From assembly GCA_947630005.1 (NCBI GenBank), contig CANRGB010000004.1, positions 1 through 54,683 of the forward strand: 54,683 nt of DNA, written 5' to 3'. The DNA comes from an uncultured Lachnospiraceae bacterium. GTDB lineage: Bacteria > Bacillota > Clostridia > Lachnospirales > Lachnospiraceae. The stretch's first letter is position 1, and each line of letters starts with the position of its first letter. The position numbers and the translations under genes are program-made. Positions 41,015-45,717 of this stretch are shown here, piece by piece. The notes beneath the pieces are model-generated. The model made no database searches and was not told the DNA's origin. It saw only the letters and a list, made by a program, of their open reading frames with translations.

Positions 41015-41932
41015 ATGGACAAGATAAACACGGAAAAAGCGGAACAGGAAACAAACGCCGTGGCAGAGGAGCGCGTCAGGAAGGCGGAGCGGAGCATCAT
41101 CAAAAAGTTCCGCCGGGAATTGTGGTGCCGCTTTACCAAAGCGGTCAGAGAGTACGAGCTGATCAAAGACGGAGACAAAATCGCCGTCTGTATTTCGGGC
41201 GGCAAGGATTCCATGCTGATGGCCAAACTGTTTCAGGAACTGTACCGGCACGGAAGAAAGAATTTTGAACTCGTTTTTCTCGTCATGAATCCGGGATACA
41301 ATGAGGTCAATTATCAGCTGATCCTCGACAACGCAAAGCTTCTTCGCGTACCTGTCACGGTTTTTGGCTCGCAGATTTTTGATATCGTCGCGGGCGAGAA
41401 AAACTCGCCCTGCTATCTCTGCGCCAGGATGAGACGCGGATTTCTTTATCAGAAGGCGCGGGAGCTCGGCTGCAATAAGATCGCGCTCGGACATCATTAC
41501 GATGATGTGATCGAGACAATTCTGATGGGAATGCTGTACGGCGGACAGGTGCAGACAATGATGCCGAAGCTGCACAGCGTGAATTTTGATGGGATGGAAC
41601 TGATCCGTCCTCTGTATCTGATCCGTGAGCAGGACATCATCCGCTGGGCGGACTACAACGGACTTCGCTTTATCCGCTGCGCCTGCCGCTTTACGGAGAA
41701 ATGCGCGATGCAGGACGGCCCGGTCACAGGTTCCAGAAGAGAAGATGTCAAGCGGCTGATCCGGCGGCTCGCGGAGGACGACCCGGCGGTCGAAAGCAAC
41801 ATATTCCGGAGCGTCGAGAATGTGAATCTTCACACGCTCATCGCCTACAAAAAAGACGGAGTGCGGCATCATTTTCTGGATGAATATGATATTTCCGAAA
41901 AATGCTCCGCGGACGGAGAAAACCCCGCGTAA
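41015..41932 (+). CDS. TtcA-like tRNA thiolation ATPase (PP-loop, two Cys-pair motifs)
   Basis: IAVCISGGKDSMLMAKL, PCYLCARMRRGFLY, ALGHHYDDVIETILMGM, RCACRFTEKCAM. Confidence 0.82.
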   Translation: MDKINTEKAEQETNAVAEERVRKAERSIIKKFRRELWCRFTKAVREYELIKDGDKIAVCISGGKDSMLMAKLFQELYRHGRKNFELVFLVMNPGYNEVNYQLILDNAKLLRVPVTVFGSQIFDIVAGEKNSPCYLCARMRRGFLYQKARELGCNKIALGHHYDDVIETILMGMLYGGQVQTMMPKLHSVNFDGMELIRPLYLIREQDIIRWADYNGLRFIRCACRFTEKCAMQDGPVTGSRREDVKRLIRRLAEDDPAVESNIFRSVENVNLHTLIAYKKDGVRHHFLDEYDISEKCSADGENPA

Positions 41933-41964
41933 ATTCTGACAGGATCTGGAAAGGAACAAAAACC

Positions 41965-42957
41965 ATGAAAAAAATAAAAAAATATCTGAGACGGGCGGCG
42001 TTTCTGTTTTTGATTTTTCTGCTTGCGTCCGGCTTTGACGGCGCGAGAGCGGAAGCTGCCGCTCCGTCCGCGCTTCATGTAAAAGGAACAAAACTTGTAA
42101 ACGCGAAAGGAAAGACGGTACAGCTTCGCGGCGTGAGCACCCACGGCCTTTCCTGGTTCCCGCAGTATGTGAACCAGAAGGCGTTCACTTACATGAAAAA
42201 GAACTGGAAGATCAATGTGGTGCGTCTGGCGATGTACACGGCGGAATACAACGGATACTGCACCGGAGACGCGCAGAACCGCAAAAATCTGGAGAAGCTT
42301 ATCGACAACGGCGTCCGTTACGCCTCAAATGCGGGACTGTATGTGATTATTGACTGGCATATTTTAAGTGACGGAAATCCGACAACTTACCAGAAGCAGG
42401 CGGTTTCCTTCTTTAAGAAAATGGCGAAGAAATATAAGAACCGTTCCAATGTCCTCTATGAGATCTGCAATGAGCCGAACGGAGGCGCGGATTGGAGTAC
42501 GATCCGCTCCTACGCGGCCAGGATCATAAAGACCATACGGAATTATGACAAAAAAGCGGTGATTCTTGTCGGTACGCCTACGTGGTCGCAGGACGTGGAC
42601 GCGGCGGCAAAAAATCCGCTGAAGGGCAGCAATCTGATGTACACGCTGCATTTTTACGCCGGGACGCACGGACAGTTCCTCCGGGACAAGGCGCAGGCGG
42701 CCCTCAAAGCGGGACTTCCGCTTTTCGTATCGGAATTCGGAATCTCGGACGCGTCCGGCAGCGGCACCCTGAACAAGACGGAGGGAAAGAAATGGCTGAA
42801 CTTCCTTGATAAGAACAAGATCAGCTATGTCGCGTGGAGCCTCTCGAACAAAAATGAGAGCTCGGCCCTGCTTAGCTCTTCCGGCAGCAAGACGACGGGG
42901 TGGAGGAAAAGCGATCTCAGCGACTGGGGCAGATGGTTTACCGCCCGTCTGTCCTGA
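41965..42957 (+). CDS. Secreted glycoside hydrolase family 5 (cellulase-like)
   Basis: Signal peptide; LRGVSTHGLSWFPQYVN, YVIIDWHIL, NVLYEICNEPNGG (acid/base), PLFVSEFGIS (nucleophile). Confidence 0.88.
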   Translation: MKKIKKYLRRAAFLFLIFLLASGFDGARAEAAAPSALHVKGTKLVNAKGKTVQLRGVSTHGLSWFPQYVNQKAFTYMKKNWKINVVRLAMYTAEYNGYCTGDAQNRKNLEKLIDNGVRYASNAGLYVIIDWHILSDGNPTTYQKQAVSFFKKMAKKYKNRSNVLYEICNEPNGGADWSTIRSYAARIIKTIRNYDKKAVILVGTPTWSQDVDAAAKNPLKGSNLMYTLHFYAGTHGQFLRDKAQAALKAGLPLFVSEFGISDASGSGTLNKTEGKKWLNFLDKNKISYVAWSLSNKNESSALLSSSGSKTTGWRKSDLSDWGRWFTARLS

Positions 42958-43025: not shown

Positions 43026-43054
43026 GCATAACCGGGCAGGCCCCCTCATATATT
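43026..43054 (+). promoter_or_regulatory. Sigma-E-like promoter for spoIVA (GCATAAC-N14-CATATATT)
   Basis: -35-like 43026-43032, 14-nt spacer, CATATATT 43047-43054. Confidence 0.6.
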
Positions 43055-43080
43055 AGAGTAGTATATGCAGGGGGTCTTTT
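43041..43080 (+). terminator. 12-bp hairpin (one bulge) followed by TCTTTT; its 3' arm contains the spoIVA SD
   Basis: CCCCCTCATATA (43041-43052) / TATATG(C)AGGGGG (43062-43074), then tctttt, ATG at 43082. Confidence 0.7.
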
Positions 43081-43081
43081 C

Positions 43082-44551
43082 ATGGAAAAATTTGATCTGT
43101 ACAAAGATATCCAGGCAAGGACGGGCGGAGAGATCTACGTCGGCGTCGTCGGACCCGTCCGTACCGGAAAATCCACGTTTATCCGAAAATTTATGGAACA
43201 GCTTGTCCTGCCGGGACTGGCGGAACAGGAGAGAAAACGGGCCACCGACGAGCTGCCTGCGAGCGCTGCCGGACGCACCGTGACGACCGTGGAACCCAAG
43301 TTTATCCCGCGGGAATCGTTTCCGCTGAGCCTCGGAGACGAGACGGCCATGCGCGTCCGCCTGGTGGACTGCGTCGGCTTTACGGTTCCGGGCGCGGAAG
43401 GGCTGACCGAGGACGGCGCGCCGCGAATGGTACATACGCCGTGGTCGAAAGAACCGATCAGCTTTTCGGAGGCCGCAAAGACCGGGACAAGAAAGGTAAT
43501 CACGGATCACGCGACGATCGGACTCGTCATTACGACGGACGGCAGCTTTGGGGAACTGCCCCGCCAGAGTTTTCTTGAAGCGGAAAAGGAGACGATCGAA
43601 GAACTGAAGGCGATCGGAAAACCGTTTCTGGTCGTCGTAAATTCGGCGGATCCGTACGGAAAGGACGCGAAAGACACCGCGGCCTATCTGCTGAAAACCT
43701 ACGGAGAAAACTGTGTCATACTGAACTGCGAACAGCTGAAAAAAGAAGAAATCTTTACGATCTTTGAACAGTTTCTCCTGGAGTTTCCGCTGACCAGGAT
43801 CGTCTTTCAGATTCCCAGATGGATCGAGACGCTGGAGAATACCCACTGGCTGAAACAGGAATTGTTTGAAGGCGTCCGGCAAAAGCTGAAGGGCCTGAAA
43901 ACGATCCGGGATCTCTACAGGGAAGATCTTCTGGTGCCGGGAGAACACATCAGAAAGACGAAGCTCGAGTCCGTTGATCTGTCGACGGGGGCCGCGGAGG
44001 TCGCGCTGTCCGTCGATGAGGCGTTATATTATCAGATCCTCAGCGAGATGACAGATACCGAGATCAGAAGCGAATATCAGCTCATTTCCATCATACGCGA
44101 GATGGCAAAGCTCAGAAAAGAGTATGAGGCGGTAGCGCTCGCCGTATCCGAGGTGAAGCAGAAAGGCTACGGGATCATAACGCCCTCCAGGGATGAGATC
44201 CGCCTGGAGGAACCAGTGCTGATCCATCAGGGAAATAAGTACGGGGTAAAGATCAAGGCGACTTCGCCCTCGATTCACCTGATCCGCGCGGAGATCGAGA
44301 CAGAGCTTGCGCCAATTGTGGGGAGCGAATCCCAGGCCCAGGATCTGATCAGCTACATGAAAGAAAACGCCGCTTCCGAGGAAGGGCCCTGGAAAACGCT
44401 GATTTTCGGAAAGTCCATGGAGCAGATGGTAGACGACGGAATCAGGGCAAAGCTCTCTGTCATAAGTGAAGGAACCCGGCAGAAACTGCAGAACGCCCTG
44501 AAGCGGATCGTAAACTCTTCAGGCGGAAGACTGATCTGCATCATCCTCTGA
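43082..44551 (+). CDS. spoIVA: Stage IV sporulation protein A
   Basis: MEKFDLYKDIQARTGGEIYVGVVGPVRTGKSTFIRKFMEQLVLP...LVDCVGFTVPGA; 489 aa. Confidence 0.97.
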   Translation: MEKFDLYKDIQARTGGEIYVGVVGPVRTGKSTFIRKFMEQLVLPGLAEQERKRATDELPASAAGRTVTTVEPKFIPRESFPLSLGDETAMRVRLVDCVGFTVPGAEGLTEDGAPRMVHTPWSKEPISFSEAAKTGTRKVITDHATIGLVITTDGSFGELPRQSFLEAEKETIEELKAIGKPFLVVVNSADPYGKDAKDTAAYLLKTYGENCVILNCEQLKKEEIFTIFEQFLLEFPLTRIVFQIPRWIETLENTHWLKQELFEGVRQKLKGLKTIRDLYREDLLVPGEHIRKTKLESVDLSTGAAEVALSVDEALYYQILSEMTDTEIRSEYQLISIIREMAKLRKEYEAVALAVSEVKQKGYGIITPSRDEIRLEEPVLIHQGNKYGVKIKATSPSIHLIRAEIETELAPIVGSESQAQDLISYMKENAASEEGPWKTLIFGKSMEQMVDDGIRAKLSVISEGTRQKLQNALKRIVNSSGGRLICIIL

Positions 44552-44556
44552 GAAAC

Positions 44557-44583
44557 CTGCCGCAGAAATCTGCGGCAGCTTTT
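44557..44583 (+). terminator. Intrinsic terminator after spoIVA
   Basis: CTGCCGCAGA-aa-TCTGCGGCAG then cttttt. Confidence 0.85.
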
Positions 44584-44595
44584 TGCGCATTTCAT

Positions 44596-44624: not shown

Positions 44625-44670
44625 ACAAAAGTGTTACAGAATTTTTAAGAAATACATAAGGAGACAAGCT

Positions 44671-45717
44671 ATGCGCAAAAAGCAATGGGGGTTGTATACA
44701 GGATTGTTTCTGATGATGTTCTTGTTCCTCGCCGTACCGGTGCGTTCTGAGGCGGCATGGACGAGAAATGCCGACGGCACGTATTCTTTCTACCGGAAAG
44801 ACGGGACGAAGGCCGTAAATACCTGGATCAACAAGACGTACTATGTAAATGCCGAAGGCATACGTCAGACAGGGTGGCTGGTTTATAAAAACAAAACGTA
44901 TTTTCTTACAAAATCCAACGGGAAAAAGATAACAAAATGCTGGGTGAAGACCAACGGTAATTTCTATTATTTCAACGCGAACGGCGTGATGGTCAAAAAC
45001 AGGAAAGTCGGCCAGTACTATGTCGGGTCCGACGGAAAGCGTCTGTACAATACCTGGGTTGACGATATATATCTGGGCAGCAGCGGCAAGAGCGTAAAGG
45101 GACTGCAGACGATCAACGGCAGCTATTATTATTTTGACAGTTCCACCGGAAAGAAAGCCGTTTCCTGCAGAATGACGCTGAACGGAGTCGTGTATGAGTT
45201 TGCGCAGAACGGCGTGGGGATCGTTATCTCCGACGGAAAGATCCCGGTTACCGGAATCAGCGTTGAGGATACCTATTACTCCGATCCTTACGCGGACGAT
45301 GAGACGCTGCTTGGCGCGATCATTTACTGTGAGGCGGGCAACCAGGCTTACAACGGCCAGCTTGCCGTCGGCTTTGTCATCATGAACCGCCTGCATTCAT
45401 CAGCTTTCCCGGGATCTTCCATACGGGAGATCGTCTATGCCAAGACGCAGTTTTCCCCGGCGCGGGACGGGAGCCTCACCAGAGCCCTGACGAATCCGTC
45501 GATCGTGAGTGCGCAGTGCAGAAAAGCTGCCAAGGAGACGCTGAAGCTGTACAAAAATTATACGGCGGGGAAAAAGATCTATCTTGAGGTCGGTAAAAAT
45601 ATTGAGTTTTCCGAATATATGTTCTTCATGACGCAGCCCGCGTACATACGGCTTGGCCTGAAATCGGAATATCTCAAGATCGGAGATCATGTTTTCTTCA
45701 AAAACTGGAAAAAATAA
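44671..45717 (+). CDS. Secreted cell wall hydrolase: choline-binding-like repeats + SleB/Hydrolase_2 domain
   Basis: SD aaggaga before ATG 44671; signal peptide; repeats of TYSFYRKDGTKAVNTWI / NGNFYYFNANGVMV type; ETLLGAIIYCEAGNQAYNGQLAVGFVIMNRL. Confidence 0.88.
   Translation: MRKKQWGLYTGLFLMMFLFLAVPVRSEAAWTRNADGTYSFYRKDGTKAVNTWINKTYYVNAEGIRQTGWLVYKNKTYFLTKSNGKKITKCWVKTNGNFYYFNANGVMVKNRKVGQYYVGSDGKRLYNTWVDDIYLGSSGKSVKGLQTINGSYYYFDSSTGKKAVSCRMTLNGVVYEFAQNGVGIVISDGKIPVTGISVEDTYYSDPYADDETLLGAIIYCEAGNQAYNGQLAVGFVIMNRLHSSAFPGSSIREIVYAKTQFSPARDGSLTRALTNPSIVSAQCRKAAKETLKLYKNYTAGKKIYLEVGKNIEFSEYMFFMTQPAYIRLGLKSEYLKIGDHVFFKNWKK

Follow-up and report, generated by a model that had tools for sequence, protein, structure and literature searches.

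A segment of about 55 bp upstream of spoIVA appears to be a promoter, a terminator and a ribosome-binding site at once, so the point at which transcription starts appears to decide whether the mRNA is both made and translated. We consider this element probably to be a read-through insulator, through which SpoIVA synthesis depends on the gene's own sporulation promoter; in this bacterium and in most of its spore-forming relatives, only messages begun at that promoter seem to be translatable. The original prediction that promoter, hairpin and the sole spoIVA SD are superimposed was borne out in the window (the whole stretch of 54,683 nucleotides that was analysed, to which all positions refer), and the layout was found to recur 5′ of spoIVA across the family. 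The features of the locus are the following.

41902–42957, + strand: co-directional glycosyl hydrolase family 5 (GH5) gene upstream of spoIVA (PF00150, E = 1.6e-70)
43026–43032, + strand: −35-like element GCATAAC of a sigma-E-type promoter, with its ATA core at 43028–43030
43038–43055, + strand: hairpin 5′ arm (RNAfold), with the anti-SD CCCCCT at 43041–43046
43047–43054, + strand: −10-like element CATATATT, within the hairpin 5′ arm
43059–43077, + strand: hairpin 3′ arm (RNAfold), with a bulged C at 43068
43060–43062, + strand: predicted transcription start, 6–8 nt 3′ of the −10, from promoter geometry
43069–43074, + strand: SD AGGGGG, within the hairpin 3′ arm
43075–43081, + strand: SD-to-ATG spacer TCTTTTC, also a terminator-like U-tract
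43082–44551, + strand: spoIVA coding sequence, 489 aa (PF09547, E = 1.1e-103)

The sigma-E-type promoter (ATA-N16-CATATATT), the hairpin and the SD overlap within 43026–43081, and no SD other than AGGGGG was found upstream of the spoIVA ATG. RNAfold yields an 18-pair stem, interrupted by the single bulged C and closed by the loop GAG (43056–43058), with an energy of −24.4 kcal/mol (z −4.5; 0 of 200 dinucleotide shuffles were equally good). The 12-bp hairpin originally drawn at 43041–43074 survives as the core of this longer stem (43041–43052 with 43062–43074). Judged by promoter geometry, the predicted start would fall just 3′ of the loop and leave a leader of ~20–22 nt. On in silico folding, opening the SD costs 14.0 kcal/mol in the long transcript and 5.3 kcal/mol in the short one; the expectation that the SD is open in the short transcript thus holds as a large drop in cost, which stops above zero because part of the SD pairs weakly with the early codons. 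The GH5 gene, whose stop codon lies 124 nt from the spoIVA ATG, is a possible source of read-through. A scan of all 54.7 kb for the layout (SD, sigma-E-like −10 and −35, ORF and sequestered SD) returned this site as the sole match. A simple terminator scan made no call at the site, where only 5 of the 7 nt in the short U-tract are U and the stem is bulged.

We infer that the promoter depends on sigma-E and starts transcription at the predicted site, and that read-through, termination and a translational block really take place; these would act together as follows. RNA polymerase arriving from a co-directional upstream gene would transcribe both arms, and the RNA would fold into a strong hairpin with a U-rich tract behind it; most read-through transcripts would probably terminate there. 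In read-through RNA that continued, the SD would be locked in the 3′ arm and translation would be poor. The sigma-E RNA polymerase would bind the promoter lying across the 5′ arm and start at ~43060–43062, beyond that arm; since a leader of ~21 nt cannot form the hairpin, the sporulation transcript would be neither terminated nor blocked at its SD.

The layout and its conservation, the covariation of its arms, the U-tract enrichment and the link to co-directional neighbours were computed here for 213 distinct spoIVA upstream regions (185 from Lachnospiraceae and 28 from the order's other families), drawn from named genomes and from the genus, order and family. In most Lachnospiraceae the parts follow one another in the order ATA, 16 nt containing a C-rich anti-SD, CATAYANT, a short loop (often TGTAaCAG), SD, U-rich spacer and ATG. 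Kineothrix alysoides (L041) is one cultured, sporulating member of the family that has the hairpin. The −10 scores at least 10 of 12 in 200 of the 213 regions. When the −10 was picked by its motif alone, blind to the −35, ATA stood exactly 16 nt 5′ of it in 77 of 142 loci, compared with ~4% at most other offsets, and counting [AC]TA raised the number to 99 of 142. The −35 is therefore real, as one block of a two-block element with the −10, and the fixed spacing (ATA-N16-CATA) fits the sigma-E consensus. The predicted leader of the relatives has a median length of 22 nt. In the order's other families the layout is occasional, being strong in 9 of 28 regions. Our literature search found no paper on spoIVA start sites in Lachnospiraceae.

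Several variants of the region were observed alongside. In other families (L115–L119, L128, L133 and L139–L143), a palindrome, TGTAnnnATACA, lies just 3′ of the spoIVA −10 and may represent either a regulator site or a 5′-terminal RNA hairpin. Three close relatives (L102, L105 and L108) carry an extra hairpin of ~20 nt (GTGACACCCACGATGTGGGC) within the loop 5′ of spoIVA and keep both arms. In L064, L068 and L175, the old SD arm is succeeded on its 3′ side by another hairpin (GCCAACGCC...GGTGTTGGC) and by a new SD, which looks like a displacement of the start region.

Taking an unpaired probability below 0.2 as sequestration, the SD is sequestered in 153 of 213 folds of the long transcript (71.8%) versus 3 of 213 folds begun at the predicted start; among control genes with an SD at the same loci the fraction is 10.6% (n = 245). 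Opening the SD costs a median of 13.2 kcal/mol when the transcript is long and 2.5 when it is short, with the long form the costlier in 198 of 206 cases. In silico, then, RNA started upstream holds the SD in a helix, as it does in genes of the T4 e, I-TevI and sigG type.

The SD itself differs by lineage (GCAGGGGG, CAAGGGGG, GGAAGGGG, AGGAGG and others), and the spacer 5′ of the −10 changes alongside. Column-based pair counting was replaced, because loop lengths vary and MAFFT columns misalign the arms; covariation was measured by arm permutation and per-sequence pairing. The duplex of a locus's own arms averages −14.9 kcal/mol, versus −10.85 ± 0.20 after permutation of the 3′ arms between species (z ~ −20, which is not a probability, since the permutation leaves relatedness in), and several standard pair types occur at each SD position. 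The same complementarity between arms is thus reached by different sequences. In some lineages (L031 and L156) the inner stem is another pair rather than the −10 and its complement, and the −10 lies in the loop.

This variation bears on an operator reading, in which SpoIIID or some other regulator would bind the palindrome as DNA where it overlaps the sigma-E promoter and the RNA hairpin would be incidental. The palindrome does overlap the promoter, and B. subtilis spoIVA is activated by sigma-E and repressed by SpoIIID (PMC517825). A sequence-specific operator, however, would not tolerate arms that vary so widely while keeping their complementarity, nor is the variable loop length in its favour, and we regard this reading as very improbable. 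Marginally less probable still is that the hairpin acts inside the sporulation transcript as a riboswitch, thermometer or 5′ stabiliser, for which the leader hairpin that damps translation of B. subtilis sigG (PMC5942855) may be counted. The anti-SD lies upstream of the −10 in 176 of the 183 hairpin-bearing loci and 5′ of the predicted start in 182, as expected from the initial proposal that transcription starts 3′ of the 5′ arm, so the sporulation transcript would begin beyond that arm. The loop in the window is, moreover, only 3 nt long, and the window element has no match to an Rfam covariance model up to E = 1.

The spacer between SD and ATG contains TTTT in 54.5% of spoIVA loci versus 4.1% of control genes, making it ~13 times commoner, and TTTT goes with the hairpin (109 of 153 hairpin loci versus 7 of 60 without). 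The U-tract enrichment is family-wide; the window's own TCTTTTC and bulged stem went unflagged. Together with the covariation between SD and anti-SD, the placement of the U-tract on the hairpin lends comparative support to the suggestion that the hairpin would terminate read-through transcripts, hide the SD or do both, and each structural part of the earlier reading appears supported by comparative evidence.

A guard against read-through should need a co-directional neighbour, and the association of the hairpin with gene direction agrees with that expectation. Where the upstream gene is co-directional, the hairpin is present in 127 of 156 loci and the U-tract in 100 of 156; where it is not, the counts are 4 of 17 and 3 of 17. 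Upstream genes on the opposite strand were checked with Pfam, seven candidates without Pfam support being excluded, and those loci with ambiguous orientation, owing to long antisense ORFs, that were tested with Pfam proved co-directional. On a SpoIVA tree with 11 independent pairs, the hairpin comparison came out at 6.5 versus 0.7 pairs (median p 0.07) and the U-tract comparison at 6.2 versus 0.2 (median p 0.03), a weak to borderline result that makes the phylogeny-controlled test supportive, not decisive. About 18% of the co-directional loci have no hairpin, the close relatives L007, L008 and L050 among them. Neither the U-tract association nor the dependence on upstream-gene direction would be expected of an operator.

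The same data raise the possibility that the hairpin serves chiefly to end transcription of the upstream gene, as an intrinsic terminator pushed up against spoIVA for economy of space. In that case the short intergenic gap alone would account for the SD lying in the 3′ arm, and masking the SD would have no selected role. The enrichment of U-tracts in spoIVA spacers and their tracking of upstream-gene direction fit such a terminator, as does the distance from stop codon to ATG, which is at most 80 nt in 63 of 133 co-directional hairpin loci and leaves little room for a separate one. On the other hand, 44 of the 153 hairpin loci have no TTTT run and still keep the SD paired, and a plain terminator needs no predicted start beyond the anti-SD arm, as is seen in 182 of 183 loci. 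The hairpin also stays with spoIVA across many unrelated upstream genes. These form 79 clusters, including gpsA, lactonase, ABC transporter, YgjP, Fe-hydrogenase and GH5 types, and at loci with rare neighbours the hairpin is present in 55 of 68; the element therefore belongs to spoIVA and not to one neighbour. The proposal of read-through from the GH5 gene accordingly stands as a dependence on co-directional neighbours, among which GH5 is not special. We judge the terminator-only explanation unlikely, though less so than the operator and in-transcript readings, and favour the insulator that combines termination with SD masking.

T4 gene e and I-TevI are established cases of this SD-masking logic (PMC3014915, PMC2988022). 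In the T4 late genes e, soc and 49, in the homing endonuclease I-TevI and in Aeh1 mobE, upstream-initiated transcripts sequester the SD, and the late promoter overlaps the 5′ strand of the helix (PMC3014915, PMC2988022). The spoIVA element resembles these in that the SD is hidden in the long transcript and a stage-specific promoter over the 5′ strand would give rise to an RNA without that strand, which would be translated. It differs from them in serving a bacterial developmental gene with a sigma-E-type promoter, conserved across a bacterial family, and in having a GC-rich stem followed by a U-tract, a probable terminator; the T4 cases have been tested by experiment, whereas the spoIVA case is predicted from sequence and folding.

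For B. subtilis sigG (spoIIIG), a large hairpin that cannot form in PsigG transcripts was proposed to block translation of read-through from spoIIG, according to the earlier work as cited in PMC5942855. B. subtilis sigG is like spoIVA in being a sporulation gene with putative read-through from a co-directional neighbour and an own transcript predicted to be free of the hairpin, and unlike it in the gene, sigma factor and family concerned, in the U-tract on the spoIVA stem and in the arm covariation over many genera. With intrinsic (Rho-independent) terminators the spoIVA element appears to share, in most relatives, a GC-rich stem directly followed by a U-rich tract; unlike them, it has a 3′ arm that is also the SD, a U-tract that is also the SD-ATG spacer, a promoter inside and, in the window, a short U-tract of its own. 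Three things are new here: the probable terminator tail, arm covariation throughout the family and the reappearance of the layout at several sporulation genes.

The same promoter-in-hairpin layout was found at spoIIID in 12 of 20 family members. We see an even chance that Lachnospiraceae use a recurrent design for mother-cell sporulation genes beyond spoIVA, with promoters placed in terminator hairpins whose 3′ arm holds the SD; as part of this reading, the genes concerned would be spoIVA, spoIIID, some yabP and spoIIIAA genes and a CotS-like gene. Most spoIIIAA and yabP loci are without the layout. A strict search for CCCC-NN-CATA...GGGG gave few matches per genome, and those examined were often at sporulation genes; this pattern misses most variants of the layout. 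A genome-wide search for the palindrome CATATA...TATATG gave no excess over the reversed control, and the inner stem alone is therefore not a widespread motif.

In compact genomes, developmental genes must stay silent beside genes expressed during growth. If the recurrent design is true, the choice of promoter would permit or deny translation and so exclude developmental proteins from cells that are growing. The layout is conserved over ~100 genera of gut bacteria and in several sporulation genes. Annotation pipelines would miss such elements, and designers of expression constructs would miss or break them.

Some further loci are recorded here as separate observations. At the spoIIID loci (L325–L345, with the bacterium's own copy at L332), where the layout is frequent, it comes with the start codon TTG and, 3′ of the −10, with the conserved loop TGTAAAAACA. 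The layout also occurs at isolated yabP (L364, L365, L371 and L360) and spoIIIAA (L317 and L299) loci, and at L386 and L391, which concern a CotS-like gene (labelled by eye) and an unidentified gene. As a general case spoIIIAA was rejected, most of its loci having a short distance between promoter and SD and no hairpin. Directly 3′ of the spoIVA stop in the window, a GC-rich, seemingly perfect inverted repeat followed by TTTTT was seen by eye (44557–44585) and is likely a terminator after spoIVA. The gene downstream (44669–45717) would, also by eye, encode a secreted protein with repeats whose C-terminal region resembles cell-wall hydrolases of the SleB/CwlJ type, and is possibly spore-related.
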